Below are positions 8,689 through 38,877 of a stretch of 64,000 nt of DNA, in pieces. The notes below the pieces were generated by a model. That model was not told the origin of the DNA. It ran no database searches and saw nothing but the letters and a program-made list of their open reading frames with translations. Origin of the DNA: Porphyridium purpureum (taxonomy: Eukaryota > Rhodophyta > Bangiophyceae > Porphyridiales > Porphyridiaceae); the NCBI GenBank assembly GCA_008690995.1, contig VRMN01000003.1, positions 1,984,001-2,048,000 of the forward strand, written 5' to 3'. The position numbers and the translations under genes were made by a program. Every line of letters starts with the position of its first letter. The stretch's first letter is position 1.

Positions 8689-10074
8689 TCAAAGCGAAAG
8701 TCTGGAACCATCCAACGGATCGCAAAACCGAGATATGTCTCCCCACCGGTGTATTTGGACCCTTCGAGCCATATCCATCTGCTTTTCGCCGCGATCCTTG
8801 ACCTGTGACGCATGGCGCACATCCTGGATGGCAATCGGCGGGTGTGCAACGCGAACCATGAATCCATGTTGCCAGAGATACGGATACATCGTGTCGAACT
8901 GAATGTTGGCCCCGGGCCCCTCGATCCACTTCATCACAGTCTGGAAGATAGACGTGTGGTAAAGCATGGCGAAAGAACCGTACGTTCTCGCATGCGCATT
9001 GATGCACTGTGGCAGGTTTGGAGTTTCTCCGAAGGGCGTCGACCGCACGGCCTCTCGGTTCAAGATTTCAATCTCAGCATCTGACAAAAACCAGCCAGAT
9101 ATGGACCAACCCTTCTGGGGGTACGTGCCGTTCACCCAGACCGCAGAGCCCAGCATGAGAATGCCTGCCGGATTTGAATTGGCCAACACCATGGTGCTGC
9201 ACCGCTGCTCGCTGAGTAGTCTCGTGAGCTTCTCCTTGAAGTCGCACTCAAACACCACATCGTCGTCGACCACCAGGATATTGCCTGATGCTATGCGGCC
9301 GGGCTCAGACAGCTCCGAGAAAAGCTTGTACATTGTCGCCTGGTACCCGCGCTCGCCCGGGCTCAAATAGCCTGGCCTACCCTCCACAAACCTTTGCTTC
9401 GTCTTCGGATCCACGTAGACGCTCTTGCCCTTCTCATCTGTCGAGTAATGCATACCAAATACCGCTGCGCCATCCACGGCCATCATTCGACGAAGCTCGA
9501 TTCCGTGCTGCTTAAGGAAGCTGCGACGAACCTCGTAGCGCTCTGCCGCACCATCCCGATCAAGGCTCAGCACGTATGCCTCCAGAGGCCAGCCTTGCAT
9601 TGGGTCGTCGGCCACATTCTGCCGAGGCGCACACTCTGGCTTCATCTTCATGCTCTTCTCAAAAAACAGGGGCGGGTTGATGTCACAGTCTGCCTCTGGA
9701 GGGGGCGTGGCGGCCACTTCTACTTGAGACAACCTGTCCGTGCGCACAGGCTTCAGATCGGCAGCCTTCGGTTGACTCGGTGCGACCGTCGCACGCGGCG
9801 CGGCAGAAGGCACCTGTTCGGGAAGCGAGTGCCTCTGTAATTCACCTGCGACACCAACACCTATGTCAGTCTGTCCCGCCAGCGCCGATTGCGACGAAGT
9901 GTCCGGGCCATGTAGCGGATGCAAACCCCCTGTTTGCTCGCCGGAGCATGCGCGCCACTGGCCATACAAGCTGGTCATCGGGAACATTGCGAGTCCGGAC
10001 AGACACGCTGCGAATATAATCACCAAGAGCACCTGCATGCGTCGATTCATCATGGGCGACGACACCATTTCCAT
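8689..10074 (-). CDS. Glycosyltransferase family 25-like type II membrane protein
   Basis: GT25 enzymes add sugars (galactose in animal collagen modification, various sugars in bacterial lipooligosaccharide). From the ATG at 10072-10074 the protein has 461 residues. The membrane anchor MQVLLVIIFAACLSGLAMF lies near the N-terminus, followed by a Pro/Ala/Ser-rich stem of about 130 residues, as in Golgi transferases. The catalytic domain starts at AYVLSLDRDGAAERYEVRR, followed by LSPGERGYQATMYKLF and a DDD metal motif in ILVVDDDVVFECDF (Asp270-272). These are GT25 signatures. A further in-frame ATG at 10183-10185 exists, but a TATA-like AT run lies only about 10 bases before it, so the inner start is preferred. 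Red algae secrete sulfated cell-wall polysaccharide, so a Golgi role is plausible but inferred. Confidence 0.85.
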   Translation of the reverse strand: MEMVSSPMMNRRMQVLLVIIFAACLSGLAMFPMTSLYGQWRACSGEQTGGLHPLHGPDTSSQSALAGQTDIGVGVAGELQRHSLPEQVPSAAPRATVAPSQPKAADLKPVRTDRLSQVEVAATPPPEADCDINPPLFFEKSMKMKPECAPRQNVADDPMQGWPLEAYVLSLDRDGAAERYEVRRSFLKQHGIELRRMMAVDGAAVFGMHYSTDEKGKSVYVDPKTKQRFVEGRPGYLSPGERGYQATMYKLFSELSEPGRIASGNILVVDDDVVFECDFKEKLTRLLSEQRCSTMVLANSNPAGILMLGSAVWVNGTYPQKGWSISGWFLSDAEIEILNREAVRSTPFGETPNLPQCINAHARTYGSFAMLYHTSIFQTVMKWIEGPGANIQFDTMYPYLWQHGFMVRVAHPPIAIQDVRHASQVKDRGEKQMDMARRVQIHRWGDISRFCDPLDGSRLSL

Positions 10075-11472
10075 TGCTGCCGGGCGCGCTCCCCACCTGC
10101 GCGCTGCTGTCGAATACCGCGTGTGGCGAGGAAAGAGGAGCGCCGCGTCGTCGTCACCAGCCGTGGTTATTGGTACCGATTTCATACACCTAAGTATATA
10201 AATAGCACGTGGATTTCGCCGAACGGGAACTCCCTCTTTGAACACCGAGCGCCACACACGCGTAGTGAGCGCGGTTTCCGGTTAATCCATGGACTGTGAA
10301 TTCACGATTAACCGATAACTAGTGCGGGTCCGAGAACGGGTGACTGATGAGCTGCCAGCTGTTAGTCGCTGGGTGAGGCCGTGGCCAAAGTGAGCACGTG
10401 AATGTCCGTCTGTTGGGACACGGATGGCGCGTCAAGCTCGATGCACAGAGCATGGCCAGTGTGGTCGTGAACAGAGCGAGCGCGCGTGACGAAGTGCTCT
10501 TCGTCTGGCATTGCTCTGAACAGCGAATTGTTTAGTGGCGCTTCTCATCGTCGCTGAGCGGTTTCCGAACGGGGGTGCGCAACAAGAAATATACGCATCC
10601 CGGTTCGGGTGTCAGGAGTAGACTTGTTAGTGTGCGCCGCATATGCTAAGGGGTTTTCTCTCCTCACCTTATCATGATTTCATGATTGCAAATAGACTCG
10701 CAAGCCCGACTTCTTGAGAACGCAAATGTTCTACCGACGTTCTCGCAAACAATGGCATGATGCCTCGAAGCTGAATAATTACACAACATGGTATATTCGA
10801 AAAGGAGCAGATAACGCAGCGAAGACGCTCCTCCACTTGAAACCCGATGCATATCCTCACGCCGCCAGCAACTTTGTCGTGAGCTCAGTCTCATGACCGC
10901 ACCCTCCAACACCTGTCCGCCAATGCCGAGGAATGAAGCAGGCACGTTGTGGCGTCTGTGCCCATCATGCGGCAGCCTGCACAGTCGAACTCGTCTTCAT
11001 TGCGCGGCGCGCGCGTTCTTGTGATGTTGAAACTTTGAGGTCTACGGCACAAACAGTTCAGGACAAGGCTTCGCTCCGCAATGGCTGCGTTAAAACCATC
11101 AACGCATTCTTTGCATGCCGTGGCGAACGACGTGTGCCTTCAAGGCGTCGAAATATCGTCAGCCCCGTTACATCAAGCGCCTTGCATGCCATTCATTCCT
11201 CAGAAGTATGCCGTACGTGTTCCATGTGCCAAGTGAGCTCGAGTGGAAAGTGCGCAGGAGAGTACGAGAGAGCGAGACGTAGGAGCCAGAGACGAAGCAA
11301 AATGGAGGCCTGGATTGTTGGTGTCAGGACGGGCGGAGTGCTCGGACTGACGCGCGGGTCGCACGCAAGCGTCCCAAGATGTGATGAAAGAAGGCGAGAT
11401 GTAAGTGCTGTGCAGCGTGCCGGGAGAGCACGAGCGGGCGTGGCTTGCCGCTGTGGAAGTGTAGGCAAAGAG
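10075..11472. other. Divergent intergenic region between GT25 and HPPD
   Basis: About 1.4 kb with no supported gene. A TATATAAATA box lies at 10195-10204 on the plus strand (CTATTTATATA on the GT25 strand) and could position GT25 transcription about 100 bases before its start. The HPPD frame is open upstream to about 10933, but that sequence is Cys/Arg-rich and unlike the enzyme. A purine-rich patch at about 11260-11300 precedes HPPD. Confidence 0.5.
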
Positions 11473-17864: not shown

Positions 17865-18719
17865 ATGGCGTTTTGCAGCGCTCTAGTTCCAAGCGGCGCG
17901 CAGCGCCGCGTCAAGATGGCCGCAACAAGCCCGTCGACGGGACGGGGCATTCCGTCGCGACGCGACTTTCTGGGGCTGGCAGCTTGGTCTGCAGCGGCCC
18001 TTGCCATGCCAAAGAAGGCGAGTGCTGCGGAGTCTGCAGTTGAGGCACCACCCGTCTTGCCCCTCCCGCCTTTGCCTTACAGCTACACTGCGCTGGAGCC
18101 TGTGATTGACGAGGAAACCATGAAGCTTCACCACGACAAGCATTTTGCGACCTACACCAAAACACTGAATGCTGCGCTGGCTCAGCTCGCAGTGACTCAG
18201 CGCGACTTGCTGCCAAAGGATCTTTCCACGACCAACGCGGTGACGGTAGCCGCATTGGTCAGCTCACTGAAGCAGATCAAGGACGAAAAAGTGCGGTCGA
18301 CCATTCGCAATCATGGCGGCGGGTACCTTAATCATCTTCTCTACTTCAGCACGCTGAGGCCCATGCGTGAGAAGAACGCCCCGAAGGCCGGTTCCAAGAT
18401 CGAGGCCGCGCTGATCAGCTCGTTTGGATCCGTGGAGGCATTCAAGCAGGAGCTGATCGACAAGTCCATGTCCCAGTTTGGAAGCGGTTGGGGTTGGCTC
18501 TACTACGACGGCTCCGCTCAGAAACTCAAGGTGAGCAACACGCCAAACCAAGACACGCCTGTAATGGAATCCGTGAACAATATTTGTCTGTTTGGAATCG
18601 ACGTGTGGGAGCACGCCTACTATCTTCGCCGAAAGAACGATCGCGGCGCGTATGTAAAGGCGATCTTCGACCTCGTCGACTGGGACACCGTTGAGGCGAT
18701 GTACACTGCACATGTGTGA
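17865..18719 (+). CDS. Superoxide dismutase, Mn-type, with Tat thylakoid-lumen signal
   Basis: Dismutates superoxide to oxygen and hydrogen peroxide. The 284-residue frame starts at ATG 17865. Family signatures are LHHDKHFATYT, FGSGWGWLYY and FGIDVWEHAYYL. Residues that separate Mn from Fe enzymes point to manganese: Gly in NHGGGYLNH and Gln in NTPNQDTPVM, where Fe enzymes carry a helix Gln and no NQD. The N-terminus is bipartite: a basic plastid-type region, then Arg32-Arg33 in SRRDFLG, a hydrophobic core LGLAAWSAAALAMP, and an Ala-x-Ala site ASA before residue 55. That is a twin-arginine signal for the thylakoid lumen. The mature protein would be about 230 residues. Lumen location is inferred from this signal. 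Confidence 0.93.
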   Translation: MAFCSALVPSGAQRRVKMAATSPSTGRGIPSRRDFLGLAAWSAAALAMPKKASAAESAVEAPPVLPLPPLPYSYTALEPVIDEETMKLHHDKHFATYTKTLNAALAQLAVTQRDLLPKDLSTTNAVTVAALVSSLKQIKDEKVRSTIRNHGGGYLNHLLYFSTLRPMREKNAPKAGSKIEAALISSFGSVEAFKQELIDKSMSQFGSGWGWLYYDGSAQKLKVSNTPNQDTPVMESVNNICLFGIDVWEHAYYLRRKNDRGAYVKAIFDLVDWDTVEAMYTAHV

Positions 18720-22313: not shown

Positions 22314-25300
22314 TTAAACATAGTTCTCCAAGGATTTCTTCAGTTCTGCAAGCTTCAACTTGAGCTTTTCCGGTACGCCACCCAACTGCTCGTAGAACGC
22401 CTCGTAGCGCGGAATGTCCACGAGCCAGTTGTCGCGATCGACAGAGAGAAGCGCCTTCAGATCCTCTGGGCTAATCGACAGCCCACTCACGTCGAGCGCA
22501 TCAACGGGCGGCAAGTTGCCAATGGGTGTGGCCACCGCTGACGCTGTTCCTTCGATGCGCTCTACGATCCACTTCAGCAAACGGACATTCTCACCGAAAC
22601 CTGGCCACATAAAGCGGCCACTCGCGTCCTTACGGAAAAAGTTCACGTAAAAGATGCGCGGCGCGTGTTCGCCCAATTTGGCTCCCATCGACAGCCAGTG
22701 CTCAAAGTACTGCGTAACAGAGTAGCCAAAGAAGGGCAACATTGCCATGGGGTCAATACGGAGCGAACCCACCTTGCCCTCAGCAGCGGCAGTCTGTTCC
22801 GATGAGCACACACTGCCTGCAAAAACGCCGTGCACCCAATCGCTTAGCTCGTTGACCAGCGGAATGGTCGTCTCGCGGCGGCCGCCAAAAATAATGGCCG
22901 AGATGGGCACACCTTCGGGATTCTCCCAATCGGGGTCAATCACCGGACAGTTCCCTGCGGGAGCCGTGTAACGCGCGTTCGGGTGCGCAGCCTTACGACC
23001 ACAACCAGGCGTCCATTTCTGATACGTCCAATCTTCCAATTCGGCTGGCGGCTCCGTGCTCATACCCTCCCACCATACGTCGCCGTCCGGCGTCAGTCCA
23101 ACATTCGTGTAGATAGAGTCCGACTTGAGTGCTTCCATAACTGAGTGATTCGTCAGGTCGCTTGTACCAGGCGCAACACCAAAGAAGCCAGACTCGGGAT
23201 TGATTGCACGTAGGCGGCCATCCTTACCAATATGCATCCAAGCCAGGTCGTCCCCAACCGTGGAAACCGACCAGCCTGGGATCGTCGGAACCATGAGCGC
23301 AAAGTTTGTCTTTCCGCATGCACTCGGGAATGCAGCGGCGACGTAGTACTTTTTGCCCGCCGGGTTCGTGATACCGAGAATCAGACAGTGCTCCGCCAGC
23401 CAGCCTTCGCGTCTCCCCAACACGCTCGCCATACGCAGGCCGTAGCATTTTTTGGGCAACAGCGCGTTGCCGCCGTATCCAGAGCGCAAACTGATGACCT
23501 GCGGATTCTCGCCGTCCGGGAAGTGGCAAATGTACTTGGGGTCATCGCATGGCCATTTGGAATCCACATCATTCGGCTTCAAAGATTTGCAAACCGAGTG
23601 GAAGCATGGCAGCCAGAACTTACCCTGCATAGCGCGCAGCACGTTGAAACCGATGCGCGTCATAATCTTGAGATTTACCACCACGTACGGCGAATCCGTG
23701 ATCTCAACGCCAAAGCGTGCGTACGGCGAGTCAATTGGTCCGCACACAAATGGAATCACATACATCGTTCGCCCGCGCATGCATCCTTGCATAATTTCGT
23801 TTAGCTCCTTCTTCATGCCCTCTGGTTCGCGCCAGTTGTTTGTCGGACCGGCATCCTCCTGCTTTTCTGAGCAAATAAATGTGCGCGACTCTACGCGAGC
23901 CACATCTTTTGGATCTGAGCGCGCCAAGAACGAATTCGGTCGTTTCTTCGGGTTCAGTCGCACAAACGTGCCGGCCTCAACCAGGACATCACACATGAGC
24001 TGGTATTCTTCTTCCGATCCATCACACCAGTGCACGTGCTCTGGCTCGCACAGCGCCTTCATTTCCTTGACCCAGCCGATCAACTTGGCGTCGGTGCACG
24101 GTACCTGCTCAACGGCGGCAAAGTGCAGCCGCTGCTCGAGGCTTGTCAGCTCACGATGGATCTCCTCCGGCCAATGGGCTTCCAGCTTGGCGTGGAACTT
24201 TCGCACCTGCGGCAACTCGTCAAGCCATTGCTGCGCATCCACTTTGAGCAACTGCTCTAGCGCACCAGGTGCTAGCTCTAACCCACTGAGATCCAGGGCA
24301 CCGGGCGCCGGCAGAATACCGATCGGGGTCGATACGCCGCCCGTGCGCTGGTTCTCCACGCGCTGCACCACCCACTTCAGCACGCGGGCATTATCGCCAA
24401 AGCCTGGCCATAAGAATCTCCCGTTCTGTGGATCTTTCTGGAACCAGTTCACGTAGAAAATGCGCGGCATCTTCTTTTCATTGATGTCGGCCAGGCGCTT
24501 GCCCATCGCCAGCCAGTTGTCACGCATATAGTCGCCCATATTGTACCCACAGAAGGGCAGCATGGCATACGGGTCAAAACGAAGCTCACCCAGTTTGCCC
24601 TCCGCAGCGGCGGTCTGTTCTGACGCACACATGGCGCCCATGAATACACCATGCTGCCAGCTGAAGCTCTCAGTGACCAGCGGAATGGTGCTGCCGCGAC
24701 GTCCGCCGAACAGCACGGCCGAAACGGGCACGCCTTCAGGATTTTCCCAGTCCGGGTCGAGCACGGGGCAATTGATTGCTGGCACCGTGTATCGTGCGTT
24801 CGGATGGGCGGCAAGTCGCCCACAATCTGGTGTCCATTTCTGCCCTTGCCAATCTTCCAGTTCGGCTGGTGGCTCGGGTGTCATGCCCTCCCACCACACA
24901 TCACCGTCGGGCGTAAGTGCGCAATTGGTGAAAATCACGTTTTCGCCGAGGGCGGCCATAGCGCTGGGATTGGTAAAGCTGCTTGTTCCAGGCGCAACCC
25001 CGAAGAATCCACTCTCAGGATTCATCGCGCGCAGCGACCCGTCGGGTGCTGGGTGCATCCACGCAATGTCATCGCCGAGCGTGGTCACTTTCATGCCAGG
25101 AACGGTAGGCACGAGCATCGCCAAATTCGTCTTGCCACATTGGCTCGGCAACGCAGCAGTGATGTAACTCTTCTTTGAACCACTCATCTCCAGACCCAGA
25201 ATAAGCATGTGCTCGGCCATCCAGCCCTCGCGGCGGCCCATCTCGCTGGCAATGCGAAGCGCGAGGCATTTCTTACCGAGAAGCGCATTCCCACCTCCGC

Positions 25301-27824
25301 CACTACCAAAGCTCATAATTTCCGGACCGTCGGCTTCGTGCGGGAAATGGGAGATGTATTTGGTCTCGTTGCACGGCCACGCAACGTCCAGCTCAGCGGG
25401 CGCAAGAGGACGACCAACAGAATGCAAGCACTTGACAAACGATCCGTCCTTGCCTAGCATACGAAGCACGCGGAAGCCTACACGCGTCATGATGTGCATG
25501 TTGGCCACGACATACGGACTGTCAGTGATCTGCACGCCGACGCGCGAGTACGGCGAGTCAAGTGGGCCCATGGAAAAGGGAATAACAAACAGCGTGCGAC
25601 CTTGCATGGCGCCGTCAAATAGACCCTCCAAGATCTTGCGCATCTCAGCCGGGTCAAACCAGTTATTTGTCGGGCCAGCTTCCTCCAATGTCGTCGTGCA
25701 CACAAATGTGCGGCTTTCAACACGGGCGACATCGTTCGGGTGCGAACGCGCAAGGTACGAGTTGGGGCGCTTCTTTGGGTCAAGTCGCACGAATGTGCCT
25801 GTTTCAACGCAAATGTCGCACATGAGCTGATACTCTTCGCGCGATCCATCGCACCAAAAGACGTGCTCCGGTTTGCACAGAGACGTCATGCGGCGGACCC
25901 AGTCCGAGAGGCGCTTGTTGGTGGTCGGTGCATTGTCCCGCAGTGCGAAATGCAGTCGCAGCTCGAGCTCTACAAGCTCGTGGCGCAGAGCGGGTGGGAG
26001 AAATTCACCCAACTTGTCCTGGTGCGCTCGGATTTGCGGCAGCTCATCAAGCCATTGCTGCGGATTCACTAACAGCAGCTCTTGCATCTCTTGCTTGGTC
26101 ACCTTGAGCCCGTGCAGGTCTACTGCGCCCTCGGCTGGCACCACGCCGACGGGGGTGTGGCGTCCACGCGCCGAGCCGTCAAGGCGGCCGAGCATCCACT
26201 TGAGCACACGCGAGTTCTCGCCAAAGCCGGGCCACAAGAAGCGGCCAGAACCACCTGCATCTTTGCGGAACCAGTTGACGTAGAAAATCTGCGGTGCCTG
26301 ACCGCCTAGTCGCTCGCCCATATCGAGCCAGTGCTTTTCGTACTCACCGCAGTTGTACCCGATGAATGGCAACATCGCGAACGGGTCAATGCGGAGCGTG
26401 CCGGCCTTCCCTTCAGCGGCCGCGGTCTGCTCGGACGAGCACATGGAACCCATGAAGACGCCATGCTGCCAGCTGAACGCCTCCGTGACCAACGGCACCG
26501 TGGTGGCACGGCGGCCACCAAAGACAATGGCCGAGATCGGAACGCCCTTGGGGTCCTGCCAGCGCGGGTCCATCACGGGGCAATTGGCGGCCGGTGCCGT
26601 GTAGCGCGCGTTCGGATGCGCAGCTGGGCGCCCACAGTCGGGCGTCCATTTCTGGAACGTCCAATCCTCAAGCTCAGCTGGTGGTTCTGGCGTCATGCCA
26701 TCCCACCACACATCACCGTCGGGCGTCAAAGCAACGTTGGTAAAAATGCAGTGCTCGGTGAGCGCCGCCATCGCGCTCGGATTTGTAAAGCTGCTCGTAC
26801 CGGGCGCTACGCCAAAGAATCCGTTCTCCGGATTAATGGCGTACAGGCGATTGTCGTCCTTGTCCTGGCGCATCCAGGCAATATCGTCACCGACCGTCGT
26901 CACCTTGAGACCCGGAATCGTCGGCACGAGCATGGCCAGGTTGGTTTTGCCGCACGCGCTCGGGAATGCAGCCGCGATGTAATGAGTCTGATTCGTGGAG
27001 GTCTGCGTGAGGCCCAGAATCAAGCAGTGCTCCGCCATCCACCCTTCTTCCAGTCCCATTGTACTTGCGATGCGTAGTGCAAAGCACTTTTTCGACAACA
27101 GTGCGTTCCCTCCGTACGCGCTGCCGTACGACATAATCGAAGGATCCTCAGGAAAGTGGCAAATATACTTGTTCTTGTTGCATGGCCAGCGCACGTCCTT
27201 CTCGCCTGGCGCGAGCGGTTTGCCGACGGAATGCACACACGGCACAAAGTCCCGCTTCTTGCCGATGCGCTGCAGCACGGCGGTGCCGACGCGCGTCATG
27301 ATGTGCATGTTGACCACCACAAATGCGCTATCCGTCAGCTGTATGCCGCAGCGCGACAGCGGCGAGTCAATGGGACCCATGCAGAATGGAATGACATACA
27401 TGGTTCTGCCACGCATGCAACCTTTGTACAGTTCGTGCAGGGTCTGCTTCATCTCGTCCGGCTCGGCCCAGTTGTTTGTCGGTCCTGCGTCCTCCTCGTA
27501 CGTTGTGCAAATAAACGTGCGGCTTTCGACGCGCGCGACGTCACTGGGGTCGGAGCGGGCCAAGTAGCAGTCCTTGCGCTTTTTTTCGTTCAACTTGATC
27601 ATTGTGCCAGCCTCGACGAGCTCCGCGGTCAAGCGGCTCCACTCGTGCGCCGACCCATCGCAGATCACGACGCTCTGCGGCTCGCACAAGGTGGCGTACT
27701 TGACAATGAACTTTTGCAGATGCTTGTTGTCGAGCCAATACACTGGCGCGAGATCTGGCGGCCCCTTACCGGCGGCGACCACGGCAGTGGCGGCGGCCAC
27801 CTCCTCCTTTGCGGCCGTGTCCAT
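22314..27824 (-). CDS. Tripled GTP-type phosphoenolpyruvate carboxykinase (three tandem enzyme units)
   Basis: PEPCK interconverts oxaloacetate plus GTP with phosphoenolpyruvate plus GDP and CO2, in gluconeogenesis or anaplerosis. From the ATG at 27822-27824 the protein has 1,836 residues, three times the usual 600-odd. Each unit carries a GTP-family set: an N-terminal CDGS substrate motif, GPTNNW, MTRVG or MTRIG, the PEP/metal-site GGNALL-KKC, the kinase-1a loop (FPSACGKTN at Cys291, LPSQCGKTN at Cys896, FPSACGKTN at Cys1503), GDDIAWM or GDDLAWM, ENGFFGVAPGTS-like, and FYVNWF or FYVNFF. Units are about 606 residues apart, joined by short helical linkers of the LDELPQ type. The frame is open throughout with no stop. 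The tyrosine before GGN is Tyr237 and Tyr1450 in units 1 and 3 but Gly843 in unit 2. There is no obvious organelle signal. Identity as GTP PEPCK is firm. Confidence 0.97.
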   Translation of the reverse strand: MDTAAKEEVAAATAVVAAGKGPPDLAPVYWLDNKHLQKFIVKYATLCEPQSVVICDGSAHEWSRLTAELVEAGTMIKLNEKKRKDCYLARSDPSDVARVESRTFICTTYEEDAGPTNNWAEPDEMKQTLHELYKGCMRGRTMYVIPFCMGPIDSPLSRCGIQLTDSAFVVVNMHIMTRVGTAVLQRIGKKRDFVPCVHSVGKPLAPGEKDVRWPCNKNKYICHFPEDPSIMSYGSAYGGNALLSKKCFALRIASTMGLEEGWMAEHCLILGLTQTSTNQTHYIAAAFPSACGKTNLAMLVPTIPGLKVTTVGDDIAWMRQDKDDNRLYAINPENGFFGVAPGTSSFTNPSAMAALTEHCIFTNVALTPDGDVWWDGMTPEPPAELEDWTFQKWTPDCGRPAAHPNARYTAPAANCPVMDPRWQDPKGVPISAIVFGGRRATTVPLVTEAFSWQHGVFMGSMCSSEQTAAAEGKAGTLRIDPFAMLPFIGYNCGEYEKHWLDMGERLGGQAPQIFYVNWFRKDAGGSGRFLWPGFGENSRVLKWMLGRLDGSARGRHTPVGVVPAEGAVDLHGLKVTKQEMQELLLVNPQQWLDELPQIRAHQDKLGEFLPPALRHELVELELRLHFALRDNAPTTNKRLSDWVRRMTSLCKPEHVFWCDGSREEYQLMCDICVETGTFVRLDPKKRPNSYLARSHPNDVARVESRTFVCTTTLEEAGPTNNWFDPAEMRKILEGLFDGAMQGRTLFVIPFSMGPLDSPYSRVGVQITDSPYVVANMHIMTRVGFRVLRMLGKDGSFVKCLHSVGRPLAPAELDVAWPCNETKYISHFPHEADGPEIMSFGSGGGGNALLGKKCLALRIASEMGRREGWMAEHMLILGLEMSGSKKSYITAALPSQCGKTNLAMLVPTVPGMKVTTLGDDIAWMHPAPDGSLRAMNPESGFFGVAPGTSSFTNPSAMAALGENVIFTNCALTPDGDVWWEGMTPEPPAELEDWQGQKWTPDCGRLAAHPNARYTVPAINCPVLDPDWENPEGVPVSAVLFGGRRGSTIPLVTESFSWQHGVFMGAMCASEQTAAAEGKLGELRFDPYAMLPFCGYNMGDYMRDNWLAMGKRLADINEKKMPRIFYVNWFQKDPQNGRFLWPGFGDNARVLKWVVQRVENQRTGGVSTPIGILPAPGALDLSGLELAPGALEQLLKVDAQQWLDELPQVRKFHAKLEAHWPEEIHRELTSLEQRLHFAAVEQVPCTDAKLIGWVKEMKALCEPEHVHWCDGSEEEYQLMCDVLVEAGTFVRLNPKKRPNSFLARSDPKDVARVESRTFICSEKQEDAGPTNNWREPEGMKKELNEIMQGCMRGRTMYVIPFVCGPIDSPYARFGVEITDSPYVVVNLKIMTRIGFNVLRAMQGKFWLPCFHSVCKSLKPNDVDSKWPCDDPKYICHFPDGENPQVISLRSGYGGNALLPKKCYGLRMASVLGRREGWLAEHCLILGITNPAGKKYYVAAAFPSACGKTNFALMVPTIPGWSVSTVGDDLAWMHIGKDGRLRAINPESGFFGVAPGTSDLTNHSVMEALKSDSIYTNVGLTPDGDVWWEGMSTEPPAELEDWTYQKWTPGCGRKAAHPNARYTAPAGNCPVIDPDWENPEGVPISAIIFGGRRETTIPLVNELSDWVHGVFAGSVCSSEQTAAAEGKVGSLRIDPMAMLPFFGYSVTQYFEHWLSMGAKLGEHAPRIFYVNFFRKDASGRFMWPGFGENVRLLKWIVERIEGTASAVATPIGNLPPVDALDVSGLSISPEDLKALLSVDRDNWLVDIPRYEAFYEQLGGVPEKLKLKLAELKKSLENYV

Positions 27825-28609: not shown

Positions 28610-29482
28610 TTAATATCCGTAGCTCGACGCGCGCTTGGCCGCGGCCATCGCCGGGTACGTGTTCGCGTAGCCCTCCTCAAAGTGTGTGGACGAGAACAGG
28701 TCGCGGCCGTACTTGCTCTGCGCGTAGCGCTCGGCAGCAAACTGCGACGCAGACTTCTGCGCCGAGCGGAACGCGACCGCGAGCGCGGCGACGCGCGCCT
28801 GCTCGGCCTGGCCCTTCGCGTTGCCCTCCACGCACGAGCTCTTGTACACGCCGCTCGCGGTGGTTCCGCGCATCTTGTTCACCTTGTCCACCGACGCCGC
28901 CAGGAACTCCTCCTCAATGCTTTCCGGCACCGCGTAGCGTTGGCATGCGCGAGTGACTTCCGTGCTTGCCATCAGTGCGGCGGCGGCGAGCTTCGGGTAC
29001 TTGATGTACTGCTTCTCCTGGTGGTCGTTCTGAGCCAGGATCAGCGCAAGGCGGCGGTTCTCGTACATGGCGCCGGTCTTCTCGGCCGCCGAGCGCTGGT
29101 TCATGCGGAATGCCGCAGACAGGGCCATGGCGCGCTTCTCGTGGGCCATTCCCTTGGCCGATCCCTCCATGCACTGGATGCCGTACACGCCGTACGGAAT
29201 CGCCGCCGCCTTGCCCTCCATGGTCACCGACTTGGCAAAAAACATGTCTGCCTTGTCCAGGGCCTTGTTGACGTTTTTCTTGGTGACCTTGGCGGAAAAT
29301 CCGCTCACCTTGGGTACGCGCTGGAAGCGGCGCATGTTGACAGACGACACGGCGCCCGTCACCATGTGCACCTGGCTGTTGCTGCTGCTGCTGCGACGCG
29401 CCGTCTTGTCGCATACCGCTGTCGCCCCAAACTTGGCCACGGCCGCCTTGCCCATAAACCCACTTACAAACGCCGTCTCCAT
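28610..29482 (-). CDS. Phycoerythrin gamma chain (phycobilisome rod linker with bilins)
   Basis: Gamma chains sit in the central hole of phycoerythrin hexamers in red algae, link them in the rods and carry phycourobilin or phycoerythrobilin on cysteines. They are nuclear-encoded and imported. From the ATG at 29480-29482 it has 290 residues, the normal length. Two internal repeats carry the family pattern: GVYGIQCMEGSAKGMA followed by RAMALSAAFRMNQRSAAE, and GVYKSSCVEGNAKGQA followed by RVAALAVAFRSAQKSAS. The Cys in each CxEG is a likely bilin site, and TRACQRYAVP may be another. The N-terminal 70 or so residues are Ser/Val/Lys-rich and probably the transit peptide. Assignment rests on remembered gamma-chain sequences. 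Confidence 0.85.
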   Translation of the reverse strand: METAFVSGFMGKAAVAKFGATAVCDKTARRSSSSNSQVHMVTGAVSSVNMRRFQRVPKVSGFSAKVTKKNVNKALDKADMFFAKSVTMEGKAAAIPYGVYGIQCMEGSAKGMAHEKRAMALSAAFRMNQRSAAEKTGAMYENRRLALILAQNDHQEKQYIKYPKLAAAALMASTEVTRACQRYAVPESIEEEFLAASVDKVNKMRGTTASGVYKSSCVEGNAKGQAEQARVAALAVAFRSAQKSASQFAAERYAQSKYGRDLFSSTHFEEGYANTYPAMAAAKRASSYGY

Positions 29483-30028: not shown

Positions 30029-32008
30029 ATGGGGATAGAAGCAGATGTTGCGCACGCTGGAGCTGCGGCGGCAGCGCCGAAGAAGGCATGGGATACGCGA
30101 GTGATGTTTCGGGAGCTCATGATGCATGATGTCGAGCTGCGTGAGTATGTGTTGAACCACGTGTTTGGCGAGGAGCTGTTCAAGCTCGCGCCGCAGTACG
30201 GAATGACCGTACGGCAAGAGCGAGATCTGACCATGGCGCGATGGGCGCGTATGCGTGAGCTGAAAGTGTACGATAATGTGCTTGCCGTCGGAGTGGATGA
30301 CCCGAGCGGCAGGCGAGCCGCCGTCCAAAAGTACGATTGTCTGTCCGAGTGCGTCGGCCTTCTTGACCACTCTTTGGAGATCAAGACGGGTGTGCACTAC
30401 GGGCTGTTTGGTTCAACCATTGCACGGCTTGGCAGCAAGCACCAGCGCGAGCTCTACTTGCCCAAAGTGCAGACGTGCGAGATGCTCGGCTGCTTTGCGC
30501 TCACAGAGCTCGGCCATGGCTCCAATGCGCGCGGCATCGAGACTACCGCCACGTACGCACCAGAGACGGACTCCATTGTGCTCCACACGCCAACTGAGAC
30601 CGCACAAAAGTACTGGATTGGCGGCGCAGCAGAGGACGCGTGCTGGACAACGGCAATGGCACAATTGTATGTGAACGGCGAGTGCCATGGCGTGCATGCA
30701 TTTATTGTGCGGCTGCGGAACGACACGGACAAGCAGCTATGCCCAGGCGTCTGGATCGAAGATTGTGGCCACAAATGCGGGCTCAACGGCGTGGATAACG
30801 GGCGCATCTGGTTTGACAACGTGCACATCCCGCGCTCGCAAATGTTGAGTGGCGTGGCAAGCATTGATGATTCAGGCAAGTACCAATCTGCGATCAAGAA
30901 CCCAGATCAGCGCTTTGCTGTGCAGCTGGGTGCGCTGAGCGGCGGCCGAATCTCGATTGCAGTCAACTCCACACGGAACGCAGCGCTGGCGTTGACCACG
31001 GCAATCCGATATGCGCATTCGCGGCGGGCGTTTGGGCCCGACGGAGCCGCCGAGGTTGCGCTAATGCACTATAGGAGCCACCAGCAGCGCCTCTTGCCAT
31101 ACCTGGCACGCACGTACGCCATGTCCTTTGCCGTCAACGAACTTAAACGTATGTGGTGGGACAACTGCCAGCTGCTCGGTACCCCGGTGAGCAAAGACGT
31201 GCACTTTGTGTCTAGCCTATTCAAGGCTCTGATGACATGGAACATGCGCGACTCTATGCAGGAATGCCGCGAGTCATGTGGTGGCCAGGGATACGCAAGT
31301 ATAAACCGCATTGGGCCGGTGAAGAACGATCGTGATGTGATGATGACGTTTGAAGGTGACAACTCGGTGCTTTTACAGCGCGCGGGTAAAATGGTGATGG
31401 ACGACTATGCACGTACGGTGAAAAGTCGAAAGCGGTCTGGCTGCTTCAAGTGGCTGTCCGAGGAGTTCGACACTAAAGTGAATAGTCCGGCTCGGCGCAC
31501 GGGCTCCGAAGATCTCTCGCAAGATGAGCAGGATTTAGAGCGGCTACTTGAAACAGCGTTGCACAGACGCCTGTATGCGTTGCTCGAAAGCCTCGCCCAA
31601 GAGGTTCCAAAGCTTCAACGCGAGCTCGCGGGCGACGCGTTTGAGGTCGCCAACATGATCTCCAGCGACGCCTCGGAGCTCGGCTACGCGTTTGCGGAGC
31701 TGCTGATTTGGCAGTGGTTTCGTCGAGACGTGGCACGCATTTCAAACGCGTATCCGGACATGGCGCGCGTGCTGCAGATGCTGTCGTCGCTTTACGCGCT
31801 AGACACGGTCGATAGATCACCGTCCTTCCTCCGCCTGTCCTGCATCTCACAAGCCGAGGCCAGCGTTGTTCGACACGCTAAACGTCGCCGATGTGCAGAG
31901 CTCGCACCGCACAGCATGGACCTCGTCAACTCGTTTGGAATACCAGACCATTTGCTCGGGCCTATAGCTGGCGACTGGGAGCTCCAAAACCGACGGAGCA
32001 AGCTGTGA
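30029..32008 (+). CDS. Peroxisomal acyl-CoA oxidase
   Basis: First step of peroxisomal beta-oxidation: acyl-CoA plus oxygen gives trans-2-enoyl-CoA and hydrogen peroxide. The 659-residue frame starts at ATG 30029. It has the N-terminal helical domain, the flavin-binding middle with FALTELGHGSNARGIETTA and YWIGGAAEDACW, GPDGAAEVALMHYRSHQQRL, and the substrate region YASINRIGPVKNDRDVMMTFEGDN. The C-terminal helical domain is present. The protein ends in SKL, the canonical PTS1 peroxisome signal. Length and layout are like plant ACX3-type enzymes. The RRAFG motif typical of these enzymes is present. No intron. Confidence 0.95.
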   Translation: MGIEADVAHAGAAAAAPKKAWDTRVMFRELMMHDVELREYVLNHVFGEELFKLAPQYGMTVRQERDLTMARWARMRELKVYDNVLAVGVDDPSGRRAAVQKYDCLSECVGLLDHSLEIKTGVHYGLFGSTIARLGSKHQRELYLPKVQTCEMLGCFALTELGHGSNARGIETTATYAPETDSIVLHTPTETAQKYWIGGAAEDACWTTAMAQLYVNGECHGVHAFIVRLRNDTDKQLCPGVWIEDCGHKCGLNGVDNGRIWFDNVHIPRSQMLSGVASIDDSGKYQSAIKNPDQRFAVQLGALSGGRISIAVNSTRNAALALTTAIRYAHSRRAFGPDGAAEVALMHYRSHQQRLLPYLARTYAMSFAVNELKRMWWDNCQLLGTPVSKDVHFVSSLFKALMTWNMRDSMQECRESCGGQGYASINRIGPVKNDRDVMMTFEGDNSVLLQRAGKMVMDDYARTVKSRKRSGCFKWLSEEFDTKVNSPARRTGSEDLSQDEQDLERLLETALHRRLYALLESLAQEVPKLQRELAGDAFEVANMISSDASELGYAFAELLIWQWFRRDVARISNAYPDMARVLQMLSSLYALDTVDRSPSFLRLSCISQAEASVVRHAKRRRCAELAPHSMDLVNSFGIPDHLLGPIAGDWELQNRRSKL

Positions 32009-32405
32009 GACCAATTTCAGCCACCAATATGATCGTGCTCATGACACGGAGAGACCATGTTCCTAACACACTTGATGCGCTCCAGCACCAGACGTGGAAT
32101 TCAGCCTGAAGCGATTAGTCTGTGGCGCTTCATAGTCTGATGCTGACAAGTTAAAAAGGGCCTTTCCGTGGCCCGCCAGTCTCAAAGTAGGACCAGAGGC
32201 AAAGAGCGCTCTGCTCATGCTGCAGTAGGTTCCGCAATTTACGCTTATTGCGAAAGCCGTCATTGTCTGTGAAGCTAAACTTCAACGCAATCAAAAGTTC
32301 AAAATCTAGCAAATGATGTCACCTTGCTGTAGCTGTAGACTTTCCGCGCTTCCGAAAGTCAATGCTCGTAAGAGAGTTGGTCCTGATACTGCAGACCAAG
32401 AATCT

Positions 32406-33016
32406 CTAGGTCATATCAACGTCGAGAAAAATGTCGTTTGCTCCTTTCCTATCGCGAACCATCACTTCTCCGACTTTGCACTGCCAAAATCTACTTGAGA
32501 TGGCTTGAGCAAGTTCAATTCTTCCCGATAAAGTCAACATCAACGACGGTAATCTTGCAGTCATACTGGCGACATCGGAAAACAAATCGCTGATAGAACC
32601 ATTTGCCAGCGTATGTTAGCATTTCCCGGTTCGCCTTTGACCTGACCTTTCCGTCGGCTTTTCGAATCATCTGGCGGACTTGCCGCTCAGATTCCGATCG
32701 GATCACGAGCATGCGTAAGATGGCTTGCCAGCTACCTTTGCTTTTCGCCCATGAGATTCAAAGCCTGTCCCATAGCCGGCAAATAGCTCGCCTCAGGTTT
32801 GGCCTTTAACATTTGCTCAATTGTCTTGTTGAAGACTAACAATCATGTCCCGAACACAAGCGCAATACCCAATGCATATCTGCAACGCCAACTTGAAGCG
32901 CAGAACCTTGGCCAACATCAAATTACGTCTGCAAGATTCTTGTGCCAGGAGCGAAAGAACAAACCGCCGTCAATTAGGCACACTCGTGGATTCGGATTTA
33001 GTTTCCAATTCAGCCT
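32406..33016 (-). pseudogene. Decayed TnpB/Fanzor-like RNA-guided nuclease gene (IS607/Fanzor2-type)
   Basis: TnpB and its eukaryotic relatives (Fanzor) are RuvC-type nucleases carried by DNA transposons. The minus strand preserves the family's motif order in separate frames. At 33016-32918 there is PRVCLIDGGLFF, matching the RuvC-I segment (usual form VVALDPGVRTF). At 32886-32869 there is VADMHWVLRL (usual DLHWKTVRFL). At 32748-32515 come RQMIRKADGKVRSKANREML, then TYAGKWFYQRFVFRCRQYD, then CKITVVDVDFIGKN (usual HYRFRQRL, CKV, VDExYTSKTC). At 32516-32406 there is FWQCKVGEVMVRDRKGANDI, matching the zinc-ribbon end and RuvC-III (usual DRDVNGARNI). Stops and frame changes separate all pieces, and the RuvC-III Asp equivalent appears kept (VRDR). 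It is inactive. Less certain remains may run upstream to about 33650. Gene identity is inference from motif order. Confidence 0.75.
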
Positions 33017-33479
33017 CTCCTTCCTTCATATTGCCGTGATCTGCAAGCAGAGTTTGCTGGTCTTGGTATTCGCCAGCGAAACCAGGCACACCGCCAGAAG
33101 AGCTATCAGAAGAAGAGCACGCACGTCGTCAATCTCTTGCGGAATACTTAGAGGCTAACGAAAGTCCATGCTCGCCATAAGCAACAACAGACTGAAATAC
33201 CACCATACCTTTTTCCAGGTGTATTCGAAAGTCCAGAGTGATTGCGCAAGGTTCTTTCGGTCATTTTCACGAGTATCCGTGGGTGCTATGAGAAACTGCG
33301 GGCTCTTCTCTTCACCAGCTGCGTCATCTCCATCGATGTTCTGATCACAAAGACATTTCGTGCAGCAATCTGTCATCCGGTTTCAGAGTTCGCTTTCGCC
33401 TCATCTTCGCAATGCTCTGCCGAACCAGTCACGGTGCGATTGCACGCCATTTTACGTCCGTCGCTCGGTTCCCACGCTT

Positions 33480-34353
33480 TTTTTTTGAAGCAGATAATCG
33501 ACTTCCTCATTTTCTTGAGGACGCTTGATCTTGAATGTCATCCATGGAGTACCGACGTCTTTTGTCATTGTCTGCTTGCCGCCTCTGTCCGTGGAATCTT
33601 CACCCGTCTGCTTCGAGTAAATTTGACACCGCGGAGCTGCTCGCATTCCCATCGTCTTGTTCACCTAGTAAAACAAACCGCAAGCGAATCTTCTGCGAGT
33701 TCCTAAGTACCATCGTCTGCGGCGTCTTCGTAGCGCGAAACCACGTCGAGTGCCGTGCTCAGTTTTCGGCACCTACAGTCAAGTGAAATAATCTACAATC
33801 AAGCAAGTCTGTCACGGTAGGTGACCGCAAATGCTTTGACGTACCCTTCTTCGACTACGTTCAAACGGAACAATAGACCTTTGCACTTGAGGTTCAGACC
33901 TGAGCCGATGCCGCGCATAAACTTCTTGTGCGTCGGACAACGATGTTTTAGGCATGCTGATCTACCTGTCGAGGTCACCTACCTCACGTCGCCTTTCGGA
34001 TTGAACACGCGCGCGAATGATGTCGAGCCGGCGCTGCATGTTCTCTGCTTCTTCAATTGCTAAGGGTTCGAACTGGACACAACTGTCGTTGGTATATGAA
34101 CAATGGACTTCCGCGGATTCGGAAAGTGGATGCATAGCTCAGCCTGCCCGCTTTCGCCCACCTGAGCAATGCGGCTCTTGACACCCCATGCGTCTTGGAA
34201 GCCGTACGTGGTGGAATACGGACGCCACCGACAATCGTTGTTGCGTAGTTTGCGAAGGAAAACCAACGTCAGCGCTTTCTTCAACTGGTTGAGCGCGATC
34301 CAGAGCGAGCAACTAGGTTTCTTGTCCGGTGTACTTTTCCCCGGACGCTCCAA
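33480..34353 (-). other. Possible N-terminal or neighbouring remains of the TnpB-like element
   Basis: Upstream of the RuvC-I piece the minus strand has short protein-like stretches in several frames, such as TFKIKRPQENEEVDYLLQKK (about 33480-33545), GLLFRLNVVEEGYVKAFAVT (about 33815-33870) and QVGESGQAELCIHFPNPRKS (about 34090-34160). I cannot tie them firmly to TnpB. They could be its N-terminal part or a second decayed gene. Confidence 0.3.
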
Positions 34354-34449: not shown

Positions 34450-37400
34450 ATGGCAGAGGATGGGCCGCACGATCGAGGAGAAAGAGCGATGCCGCAGCGG
34501 GACAACACCAGTGTGGAAAACAGCCGTGTCAGCTCCATCCTTTACAATAGCGAGGCATCAGCCGCACTCGCGCGGCCGTCGCCGGTGTCGCTGTCGCCGA
34601 ACTCTGTGGATTCGGCCGAGCGAGAGGGTGGTGAGTGTGCGGAACTCGTGGAGAGCTTGAGTGCACTTGAAAGCAGTGGGTTTGACAGTTCACAAAAGCC
34701 GCTGACGGCGCTGCCGAGCACGGTCGTCGACGAACAGTTTGTGACGTCGATCGGGCTCGTGTCGAAGGAGGATGGACTGGATGCGTTAGGGAGCGACGAG
34801 GCCGACGCGGACGCAGGACCAGAGCTCCTTCTGAGCAAGCGACTTGCATTCAGTCTCGAGGACGCGGCAAATGCGGGATCCCAGGAAGCCGCAGAAGCTC
34901 TGGCCGAGCTGGCGGCCTCTTCACATCATCCCGAGTCGGGTACATTCAGTATTGCGTCCCAATTGTCATCAGCTGCGGCGGCATATTGGGCGCAGAATCA
35001 GCAGATTCAAGAGGAGCATCAGAAACAGCAGCATGAGCAGGAACATCGGCAGCAACAACAACAGGAGGACAGAAACCGTGGCGGAAAGGAGCAGTCGGTA
35101 CCTCCACAGGGCCAGCCAATCTCTTCACGCAAATCGCCTGCCTTAAATGCGGCGCCCGTGGCGCGGCCAAGCCCCAGGAGTGAGGCGACGAGGACGTTGC
35201 CATCACCTCAGCTGCAAGCTTTGGTGCGGAGGGCGAGCGAGCTTACTCGAGACAGCGGCTCTGTGGCCAACTCAGTGGCCAAGCACCACCGTGAATTCTC
35301 GGATATAGAGGAAATTCTGTTCGAGAACCTCTCGAGCGAGGCGATCCAGTCACGGTCTCTAGAGGAAGTGCTGGCGGACGCTGATTCGCTAGAACAGGTG
35401 CTGCTGTCACACCTTCACGACGTGCTAGCCAACTTGAACGCGGTGCGAGGTAAGAAAAGATTGCTGCGAAACCGGCGCGTATCGGCAAACTCGAAAGCAT
35501 TTGGGAATGAAAAAGACAAGAATCGCCGTAACGGACCTCTCGGCAATGACGCCTTCGAGTGGTCTTCTGCACAGGAGCAGCAAAATCCGAAACGTATTAT
35601 TTCAATATCAGCGTGCCTGCCGTCCATTGAAGAGCGGAAGAACCCGTTGTTCTCGCTACACATGCCCGCGGCGGGATTTCCTCCCAATGCAATGGGTCTT
35701 GTAGAGGAAGCAACGGACTTGAACTTTGTATGGGTAGGGCGTTATCTTTGCGACGATCCGGACCAGTACCCACCGGGACGGAATTGGCGCCGTGTGATGA
35801 GCGATCACAAGGACACGCACACACATGCGCACCCTTTACATTCATCCCATTTGTACACGGCGCACGGCTCCGCAGGCGGCGACTACGGCTCTTCAACAGT
35901 TTCTACGAGCTCGGCAATACTCAGCGGGTCAATAGCCGTACGTATTCCGGAAGAGCTTATCGAGAGCTTTTCAAACTTTTGCAACAATACCCTGTGGCGG
36001 CTGCTGCACTATGACTACGACTCGCTGGGTGACGAGAAGGAGGAGGTCGAGTGGGAGGCGTACAAAGCCGTTAATATGCGCTTCGCCGAAGTCGTGGCAG
36101 AGTTTTATGAGGAGGGCGACCTAATCTGGGTGCATGATTACCATTTGCTGCTTTTGCCCGCGATGCTCAGGAAGCGTCTTTGGAAAGCAAAGATTGGCGC
36201 GTTCTTGTATGTGCCTTTCCCTTCGCAAGAAATCTTTAGAATTTTGCCACAGCGCGTCGAAGTCTTGCGGGGCATCCTGGGCGCAGATCTGGTTGGATTT
36301 TACACGTACGCCTACTCGAAGCAGTTTGTTGCGTCGTGTTTCAGGTTGCTGGGGCTGGAAGGGACACCCAAGGGCATTGAGACAGACGAGCCAGGCAATC
36401 GCACGTGCGAGCTGGGTATCTATCCGGGTGGGAGCAATGTAAACGCTCTGCGACGGCTTCGACAGAGTCCGATTGTGCATGCACGCGTCGACGAGTTCCA
36501 GCGCTCTTTCGCTGGTATGCAGATTATCGTGGGCATTGACTACATGGATGATCTATTTGCCGGCTTGTTACACAAGCTGCTAGCGTTTGGTGAGTTCCTA
36601 CGTGAAAACCCGAGCTTTTTGGGTAACGTAGTGCTGGTGCAGGTCGGGCTCGAACTCGATGACGTCTCTAACGAATCGCATGGCCCGTTTTTGAATTCAC
36701 TGGGCATTGCGCACTCGTCAGTCCAACACCTTTCGACTCTTGTGAATGAGCACGTTGGCCGCATCAACGCCAAGTACGGAACTTTGACCTACTCGCCCGT
36801 GCACTTTGTCCGCTCGCGACCAAATACAGTGGAGCTTGTGAGCCTAATGGCTGCGGGACACGTGTGTATCATGTCGTGTGTGAGAGATGGTATGCGGCTA
36901 CTACCGCACGACTGGACAGTGTGCCAGCACGGTGGGAACATGGGTCCACTCATTCTGTCAAACTTCTCGGGCTCGTCGCAATCCTTTGCGCTGGCTGTGC
37001 ACGTGAACCCTTGGGACACGACGGCCGTCGCCACTGCGTACCTTGACTGCTTGAAAATGAGCCCAGAGGAAAAGCGCATGCGCGACGACGCGGCATACCG
37101 CTTTGTCTCAACACACACTGCACAGTTGTGGGGAACAAACTTTCTCGAGGATCTTGCATCAGTGCAAGTGAATCAGCGCTGGACGGGCCCGCTACCGGCA
37201 ATGCAAGTGCCAAGCATGCGCGACGCGTTTGCCAGCTCTCAAAAGTACCGCATGCTGATGTTTCGACTAGAGGGTGCACTCATGTCGCACCAGAACGTCG
37301 TGCAGCTCGCAGCACCGTCATCGTCTGTGCTGCAGCTGCTCAGCACGCTTCTTGACGACACAAGAAACCTGGTCTTTGTGCTCACCTGGCGTGACCGTCG

Positions 37401-38877
37401 TATCGCATCTAGATGGTTTCGACGACTGCTCCTATACCCGAACTTTGGTCTGATATCTGAGGACGGTTGCTTTGTTCGCTGGCCAGCGGCCAGCGCGGTG
37501 CCTGACGGTCAGCCAGAGCATGTGGCCGAGGACATGATTAGTACACAAATTGCAGATGAGGACACGATTGAACGCATGCTGGAGGACGCGCTTCGGGCTG
37601 AGCAGCGCGTGCCGGAAAGAAACCAGCAGGACTGGAACGAGATCGGCGATGGCGCCCAAACGATGACAAGGAGGGGCAGTGACACTCTTGTAGGAGGCGC
37701 GAATGGGTCGGAGAATGCGAGCAGCATTCGCTCGGCGGATGTCTTTGCCGGGGACGTAGAGAATGTGGAAAACTCGAGGAGACTTTTGGGCAAATGGGAA
37801 TCGTTTGTCCAAGGCATTGCGCTGCAGGAGCGTGTACCGATCACAGACTTGACCATAGTCGAGGGCTCATCGCCGGCTCAATGGGGTACTCACGCGAGCA
37901 TGTACAGCCACGTTCCGTCCCCGCAATTTACCATCAACACACGGAGCCCGCATGACTCGCGACCGAGAAGTCCGAATTCGCTCTCTGGATCTGAGGTGAC
38001 TTACGCTGATGGCGGTGTCGACGATGCATTGCCTGCGGCTTCTGCGCGCTTTGCAGCAGCGTCAGACGCACTTGAGAATGCAGCAGATTTAGGGACCGCA
38101 AATCGCGCCTCCGTCCCGGTACCCTTGCCAATGCCCGTGCCAGTGCCTGTACCTGAGCGCTCGCGCAGTCGCAATGTTCATGGCGGGGGAAGCAGCACTG
38201 ATTTAAGCCGTGCAAACAGTGCCAGTGGGCCTCGTAGCTTTTTAAGTGCAAGTGGTATGTCAGTTTCAGACCGTTCGCCTTTCCGTCGCTTTCTGGTCGA
38301 CTCGGAGCATGCACCGGACGTTTTGGAAGAGTTGGTGGTGTCTGATACACTTGAGTGGAAGGAGTCTGTGATTTCCGTGATGAAGCACTTTTCGGAGCGC
38401 ACGCCGGGCGCGTTTCTCGAGGAAGGCGAAGCGATTGTGACTTGGCACTACCATGACGCAGACGCTGACTTTGGCAAGTGGCAGTCGCGCGATTTACATC
38501 GCCACCTTGAAGCATTCATGCTGCGCAGCGTCATCTCAAGCGACCAGGTCGCCAAGTGGATCCGCGTGTGCCCTGTTGGCGCAGACCGCGTGTCATCTGT
38601 TGAGCGCGTTTGCCAGGTGATGTGCCACCTGTGTGACTACTTTCTGTACGTCGGCTGCGACGGGACGGATAATCATGTGTTCGAGACGATCCGCAGGAAC
38701 AACGGTGAGCTCCTACAGAAAGCGTCGTTTGTCGGTGAAGTGGAGACTGTCTTTGTGGGCTCGCGAGGGCTAAACTCATCCGCGCGGTATTGTGTTGACT
38801 CACCGGCGGCATTTCTCGATGCTTTGCGCGTCATCGTGGGCATTGCGCCTCCCAATCTTCCCAGTGGTCGATCGTGA
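34450..38877 (+). CDS. Trehalose-6-phosphate synthase/phosphatase-like protein (class II type), probably non-catalytic
   Basis: Class II TPS proteins fuse a GT20 synthase domain to a HAD phosphatase domain. From ATG 34450 it has 1,475 residues. The first 400 or so are low complexity with a His/Gln/Glu run. The GT20 region begins near NFVWVGRY, with EEGDLIWVHDYHLLLLPAML (His-Asp at about 562), LGADLVGFYTYAYSKQF and VRDGMRLLPHDW. The normal VDRLDYTKG, whose Arg and Lys hold the donor phosphate, is replaced by IDYMDDLFAG (Tyr at about 698), so both are missing. In the phosphatase domain the HAD motif DYDGTL is replaced by FRLEGAL (about 939), losing the nucleophile Asp, and the final GDDxSDE motif is GCDGTDNH. 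ERTPGAFLEE and WHYHDADADFGKWQ are retained. A regulatory or scaffold role is inferred. Confidence 0.88.
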   Translation: MAEDGPHDRGERAMPQRDNTSVENSRVSSILYNSEASAALARPSPVSLSPNSVDSAEREGGECAELVESLSALESSGFDSSQKPLTALPSTVVDEQFVTSIGLVSKEDGLDALGSDEADADAGPELLLSKRLAFSLEDAANAGSQEAAEALAELAASSHHPESGTFSIASQLSSAAAAYWAQNQQIQEEHQKQQHEQEHRQQQQQEDRNRGGKEQSVPPQGQPISSRKSPALNAAPVARPSPRSEATRTLPSPQLQALVRRASELTRDSGSVANSVAKHHREFSDIEEILFENLSSEAIQSRSLEEVLADADSLEQVLLSHLHDVLANLNAVRGKKRLLRNRRVSANSKAFGNEKDKNRRNGPLGNDAFEWSSAQEQQNPKRIISISACLPSIEERKNPLFSLHMPAAGFPPNAMGLVEEATDLNFVWVGRYLCDDPDQYPPGRNWRRVMSDHKDTHTHAHPLHSSHLYTAHGSAGGDYGSSTVSTSSAILSGSIAVRIPEELIESFSNFCNNTLWRLLHYDYDSLGDEKEEVEWEAYKAVNMRFAEVVAEFYEEGDLIWVHDYHLLLLPAMLRKRLWKAKIGAFLYVPFPSQEIFRILPQRVEVLRGILGADLVGFYTYAYSKQFVASCFRLLGLEGTPKGIETDEPGNRTCELGIYPGGSNVNALRRLRQSPIVHARVDEFQRSFAGMQIIVGIDYMDDLFAGLLHKLLAFGEFLRENPSFLGNVVLVQVGLELDDVSNESHGPFLNSLGIAHSSVQHLSTLVNEHVGRINAKYGTLTYSPVHFVRSRPNTVELVSLMAAGHVCIMSCVRDGMRLLPHDWTVCQHGGNMGPLILSNFSGSSQSFALAVHVNPWDTTAVATAYLDCLKMSPEEKRMRDDAAYRFVSTHTAQLWGTNFLEDLASVQVNQRWTGPLPAMQVPSMRDAFASSQKYRMLMFRLEGALMSHQNVVQLAAPSSSVLQLLSTLLDDTRNLVFVLTWRDRRIASRWFRRLLLYPNFGLISEDGCFVRWPAASAVPDGQPEHVAEDMISTQIADEDTIERMLEDALRAEQRVPERNQQDWNEIGDGAQTMTRRGSDTLVGGANGSENASSIRSADVFAGDVENVENSRRLLGKWESFVQGIALQERVPITDLTIVEGSSPAQWGTHASMYSHVPSPQFTINTRSPHDSRPRSPNSLSGSEVTYADGGVDDALPAASARFAAASDALENAADLGTANRASVPVPLPMPVPVPVPERSRSRNVHGGGSSTDLSRANSASGPRSFLSASGMSVSDRSPFRRFLVDSEHAPDVLEELVVSDTLEWKESVISVMKHFSERTPGAFLEEGEAIVTWHYHDADADFGKWQSRDLHRHLEAFMLRSVISSDQVAKWIRVCPVGADRVSSVERVCQVMCHLCDYFLYVGCDGTDNHVFETIRRNNGELLQKASFVGEVETVFVGSRGLNSSARYCVDSPAAFLDALRVIVGIAPPNLPSGRS

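Follow-up and report, generated by a model that had tools for sequence, protein, structure and literature searches.

The 64,000-nucleotide stretch of Porphyridium purpureum DNA analysed here (the window) contains one unbroken reading frame for three full-length GTP-type PEPCK units, U1, U2 and U3, whose coordinates are given in Table 1. Our preferred reading, to which we assign a probability of roughly two in three, is that of an internally triplicated GTP-PEPCK made as one ~200 kDa polypeptide, in which U2 is weakened, altered or regulatory and lies between two working units.

Table 1. The three-unit PEPCK gene and its parts (positions in the window)
Feature	Position	Strand	Description
Three-unit GTP-type PEPCK gene	22314..27824	minus	ATG to stop, 1,836 aa; Pfam and NCBIfam profiles
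Unit 1 (U1)	25935..27824	minus	residues 1-630, full-length PEPCK, P-loop Cys291
Unit 2 (U2)	24117..25934	minus	residues 631-1236, full-length PEPCK, P-loop Cys896
Unit 3 (U3)	22317..24116	minus	residues 1237-1836, full-length PEPCK, P-loop Cys1503
Junction 1	25917..25952	minus	about residues 625-636, limits inferred
Junction 2	24090..24113	minus	about residues 1238-1245, a loop of 8 residues with a predicted helix on either side
Gly843 codon (human Tyr235) in U2	25296..25298	minus	Tyr in 80/80 bacterial rows, human PCK1, U1 and U3
Phe1729 codon (human Trp516) in U3	22638..22640	minus	Trp in 80/80 bacterial rows, human PCK1, U1 and U2

The frame runs from an ATG at 27824 to a stop codon at 22316-22314 on the minus strand, and this terminal stop is the only one in it; the other two sense frames of the interval contain 59 and 60 stops, and the plus-strand translation has numerous stops. 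Against Pfam, the 1,836-aa protein matched PF17297 (PEPCK_N) three times and PF00821 (PEPCK_GTP) three times, and the NCBIfam equivalog profile for GTP-PEPCK, NF003253, scored 2,728 bits over three stretches (cut-off 504). The cysteines of the P-loop motif CGKTN are found at residues 291, 896 and 1503, with spacings of 605 and 607 residues, and U1 is extended at its N-terminus by about 35 residues. These results bear out the initial annotation, which had described three full-length PEPCKs in a single unbroken frame, with cysteines at the same positions about 606 residues apart; it had given no strand, and the confirmed frame is on the minus one. Its description of each unit as complete holds for length and main motifs and fails for every active-site residue being present, as U2 and U3 carry contact changes.

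The units were next aligned with 80 bacterial homologues, which were the best 80 of 582 relatives and were picked by likeness to the units, and with human PCK1. A set of 210 columns has the same residue in at least 95% of the 80 bacterial rows, and there U1 and U2 deviated 15 times each and U3 21 times; the bacterial rows, which themselves define these columns, deviated 1.9 times on average, with a maximum of 10. PMC4631375 provided a set of 36 residues that contact GTP, oxaloacetate, PEP or a docked inhibitor, 34 of which fall in conserved columns. At these 34 columns U1 showed no change, U2 showed two (Tyr235Gly and Ala287Gln, in human numbering) and U3 one (Trp516Phe). Moreover, U2 carries Phe284Leu and Arg518Gln near the site, at positions that we added beyond the contact set. 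Tyr235, Phe284, Trp516 and Arg518 are found in 80/80 bacterial rows and in human PCK1, and Ala287 in 77/80 bacterial rows. The position of Tyr235 is occupied by Tyr in U1 and U3 and by Gly in U2, and Tyr235 mutants of human PEPCK are impaired. The aromatic residues contacting GTP, Trp516, Phe517, Phe525 and Phe530, are all present in U1 and U2, and in U3 Phe replaces Trp516 and the other three are kept.

The number of changes within the contact columns was then set against that expected from the deviations of each unit, and we found 0/15 against 2.4 for U1 (P 0.06), 2/15 against 2.4 for U2 (P 0.55) and 1/21 against 3.4 for U3 (P 0.11), where P is the probability of so few. The count in U2 is thus at chance level, and the protection of the contact residues of U1 and U3 is suggestive only. 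In the alignment, U2 stands out by lacking a contact tyrosine that is present in every comparison row. U2 is not the sole unusual unit, because U1 (Gly234Ala, Gly242Ser and Met265Cys) and U3 (Gly232Arg, Gly242Pro and Met265Cys) are both changed beside the site at near-invariant positions, conserved in 79-80/80 bacterial rows. The unit specialisation raised by the initial annotation is therefore suggested, not proven: in its favour, U2 has contact changes where U1 and U3 are unchanged, and against it, U1 and U3 are altered beside the site too.

All three units keep the P-loop Lys and Thr with the active-site Cys, as well as Lys244, His264, Asp310, Asp311, Arg87, Asn403, Arg405 and the conserved lid residues. 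Of these, Lys244, His264 and Asp311 are metal ligands, and Arg87, Asn403 and Arg405 are substrate residues. AlphaFold modelling covered U2 and U3, and the model of U2 reached a pLDDT of 86 and a pTM of 0.87. With its key residues intact and its fold well predicted, U2 is not a decayed remnant and could be active; the P-loop lysine and threonine, the metal ligands and the lid residues that it retains indicate that it may be.

This conservation bears on a reading that we consider rather unlikely, in which the same fusion holds three ordinary and equally active PEPCKs, giving three sites per mRNA (a dosage effect), and the unit-specific changes are tolerated. The residues just listed are present in every unit, the changes at or beside the site affect all three units and not U2 alone, and carbonic anhydrases with functional repeats are described for maize and P. 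purpureum in PMC2718502, all of which would fit equal activity; however, Tyr235, Phe284 and Arg518, invariant in the bacterial rows, human PCK1 and the other two units, are changed in U2, together with the nearly invariant Ala287. An unlikely extension in the other direction would make the protein a covalent PEPCK heterotrimer, with U2 as a pseudo-enzyme or sensor that binds nucleotide and metal without normal turnover of oxaloacetate and tunes the flanking units. U2 keeps its P-loop and metal ligands, but the tyrosine that contacts the substrate is gone and three further residues at or close to the site are changed. In the triplicated enzyme that we favour, U2 is therefore most likely weakened, altered or regulatory, placed between two working units, and U1 and U3, which look more canonical, would be the likelier catalysts.

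The junctions between units were analysed for signs of separate genes. At junction 1 no Met occurs from residue 581 to 645, and the first predicted helix of U2 begins at residue 637. At junction 2 there is no in-frame ATG between residues 1182 and 1255, and the first Met of U3, residue 1255, is already within the first predicted helix of this unit. Similarity between units fades only over the last 10 or so residues next to each junction, and the linkers are estimated at 8-12 residues. The triple PEPCK is therefore a fusion, since its junctions have no ATG, its linkers are this short and there is no room for UTRs. Collectively, these observations support that a covalent triple PEPCK is encoded, as the initial annotation had proposed, and we infer one polypeptide product.

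In agreement, the AlphaFold model of U2 and U3 together (residues 637-1836; pLDDT 80, pTM 0.58) joins the last helix of U2 to the first helix of U3 by an 8-residue loop. At this pTM the predicted model gives no reliable information on the packing of the units. When it was compared with the PDB, the 50 of 242 matches listed were all PEPCKs, each of one unit's length, and the half of the model that was matched is not specified in them. The predicted loops bear on a second alternative, a 1,836-residue precursor from which cleavage at the linkers would release three single PEPCKs. As short predicted loops between helices, the linkers could in principle be accessible to cleavage, but inspection by eye recognised no processing site or targeting signal, and we regard such processing as very improbable.

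The units share 60-65% identity in protein and 62-65% in DNA. Their four-fold sites agree at only 35-42%, against 29% expected from composition, and so the copies are old. Pairwise comparison (NG86) gave a dN of 0.31-0.35 and a dS of 2.0-2.6; although dS is saturated, this is the pattern expected if the protein sequence of the units had been maintained under selection. Copies that are 60-65% identical in amino acids are too divergent for reads to collapse, which rules out an assembly collapse of tandem genes, one of the conditions that the initial annotation had named as fatal to the fusion. It is extremely improbable that the open frame is accidental or an assembly join that conceals introns or three tandem genes: we found no point in favour of this, and separate genes are contradicted by the divergence of the units and by junctions with no in-frame ATG (ATG starts only) between residues 580 and 646 or 1182 and 1255, no internal stop, no room for UTRs and similarity running almost up to them.

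The relationships of the units were analysed by phylogeny. U1, U2 and U3 formed a single clade with support of 100/100 against 35 bacterial rows and human PCK1, a set with no red-algal outgroup, and with an SH-aLRT value of 100 against the 80 bacterial rows. Eight residues are common to the three units, found in at most 2/80 bacterial rows and absent from human PCK1; at positions 384, 390, 412 and 460 the common residue occurs in 0/80 bacterial rows and is absent from human PCK1. Relative to the sequences compared, the three units have a common origin. Their branching order differed between regions: the tree of the body columns joined U1 with U3 (95/86), not with U2, and that of the N-terminal columns joined U2 with U3 (97/93), in a group that also took in one long bacterial branch. 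The branch of U1 in the N-terminal part is very long (1.74), and in the tree with 80 bacterial rows the long branches of U1 and U3 meet.

U2 up to residue 689 groups with U3 at 22/24 informative sites, against 36/112 in the rest (permutation P 0.0002), and the pattern held at 15/15 sites with the residues before 655 removed (P 0.0002). When only the 42 sites sharing a residue that bacteria rarely have were counted, the breakpoint had a P of 0.012. As controls, sites where U1 equals U3 against those where U2 equals U3 also showed a break at 689 (P 0.003), and sites where U1 equals U2 against those where U1 equals U3 showed no significant break (P 0.11). An origin of U2 by unequal crossing-over or exchange between repeats is thus only partly supported by the alignment, and it is weakened because the body tree joins U1 with U3 and the N-terminal branch of U1 is so long; faster change of the U1 N-terminus may lie behind much of the pattern shared by U2 and U3 in this part.

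The fetched DNA contained no multi-unit PEPCK at any of the bacterial loci, again the best 80 of 582 relatives. Likewise, no fused PEPCK was found in 904 genome searches covering prokaryotes (900 distinct genomes, 4 of them counted twice), where open frames matching PF00821 reached 896 aa at most. The genomes with such a match numbered, by batch, 10/10, 41/149, 27/249, 33/249 and 90/247; the batch of 10 was picked because its genomes carry a PEPCK locus, and 4 of the 27 matches were weak (E ~1e-4). A scan of viral contigs gave a PEPCK relative on 6 of them. The initial annotation knew of no described triple PEPCK, and we found none either among the best-matching open-licence papers on fused, tandem or Porphyridium PEPCK. 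To our knowledge, GTP-PEPCK is known only as a single-unit enzyme.

Each Porphyridium unit shares the domain order, P-loop, metal ligands and conserved lid residues of ordinary GTP-dependent PEPCK, whose known structures include those of human PCK1 and of the rat, Corynebacterium, Polaromonas and mycobacterial enzymes; the units are 49-51% identical to human PCK1 and at most 61% identical to a bacterial row. The ordinary PEPCKs examined consist of one unit of some 600 aa, whereas the Porphyridium protein has three per chain and a divergent middle site. Tandem hexokinases, with two units and a different fold, also arose by internal duplication, and one of their halves is less active or regulatory. 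A closer likeness is found in the multi-unit beta-carbonic anhydrases, where a carbon-metabolism enzyme is also repeated in frame: PMC2718502 describes two repeats with two sets of functional sites in the enzyme of P. purpureum and two and three functional units in those of maize, and explains the grass forms by recursive tandem duplication and fusion. This enzyme is unrelated to PEPCK, and a further difference is that the triple PEPCK lacks the contact tyrosine in one of its three sites.

The other genes of the window were also inspected. Self-BLAST with masked pieces of 18 window proteins (of 26 ORFs) detected internal repeats only in the PEPCK and, weakly, in the phycobilisome linker LR8 (gamma chain; 28610-29482, minus strand), whose residues 51-134 and 157-247 are 34% identical. 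LR8 over 290 residues and the linker LRC2 (40508-41980, plus strand) over 490 residues are identical along their whole length to chains of entry 6kgx, the phycobilisome of Porphyridium purpureum, and so identify this alga as the source of the window. An Fe/Mn superoxide dismutase (17865-18719, plus strand) has an N-terminal stretch, SRRDFLGLAAW, that by eye resembles a twin-arginine signal and might direct the protein to the thylakoid lumen. An acyl-CoA oxidase identified by Pfam (30029-32008, plus strand) ends in SKL, presumably a peroxisomal signal. A 498-aa open frame (8689-10185, minus strand) had no Pfam match at E 0.001. When G+C is taken in 2-kb bins, it is lowest at 32001-34000 (0.487), and no ATG frame of at least 250 aa lies between 32009 and 34000. 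Pfam also identified a 1,475-aa protein with trehalose-phosphate synthase and trehalose-phosphatase domains (34450-38877, plus strand). According to PMC10991915, a PEPCK gene of P. purpureum is up on days 5 and 15 of nitrogen starvation, and TPS/TP genes are up on day 5 as well; we assume that this PEPCK gene is the three-unit one.

The triplicated enzyme would have arisen when one PEPCK gene was repeatedly duplicated within itself and lost the stop and start codons between the copies. Translation of the gene would give a single polypeptide of ~200 kDa, in which each unit is expected to fold as a normal PEPCK followed by a short loop to the next. No clear targeting peptide was seen in the protein by eye, and the triple protein is very probably a cytosolic PEPCK that converts oxaloacetate and GTP to PEP, GDP and CO2, an activity that would feed gluconeogenesis and polysaccharide synthesis.

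GTP-PEPCK is a key gluconeogenic enzyme, and if U2 were a sensor, an otherwise monomeric enzyme would have built-in cooperativity or allostery. Repeat-fused enzymes are already known, the double carbonic anhydrase of P. purpureum (PMC2718502) being one. Since the same species has this repeat-fused carbonic anhydrase, Porphyridium may favour repeat fusion for larger enzymes. With a three-unit PEPCK carrying unit-specific site changes, the choice between dosage, channelling and regulation by repeat fusion becomes testable.
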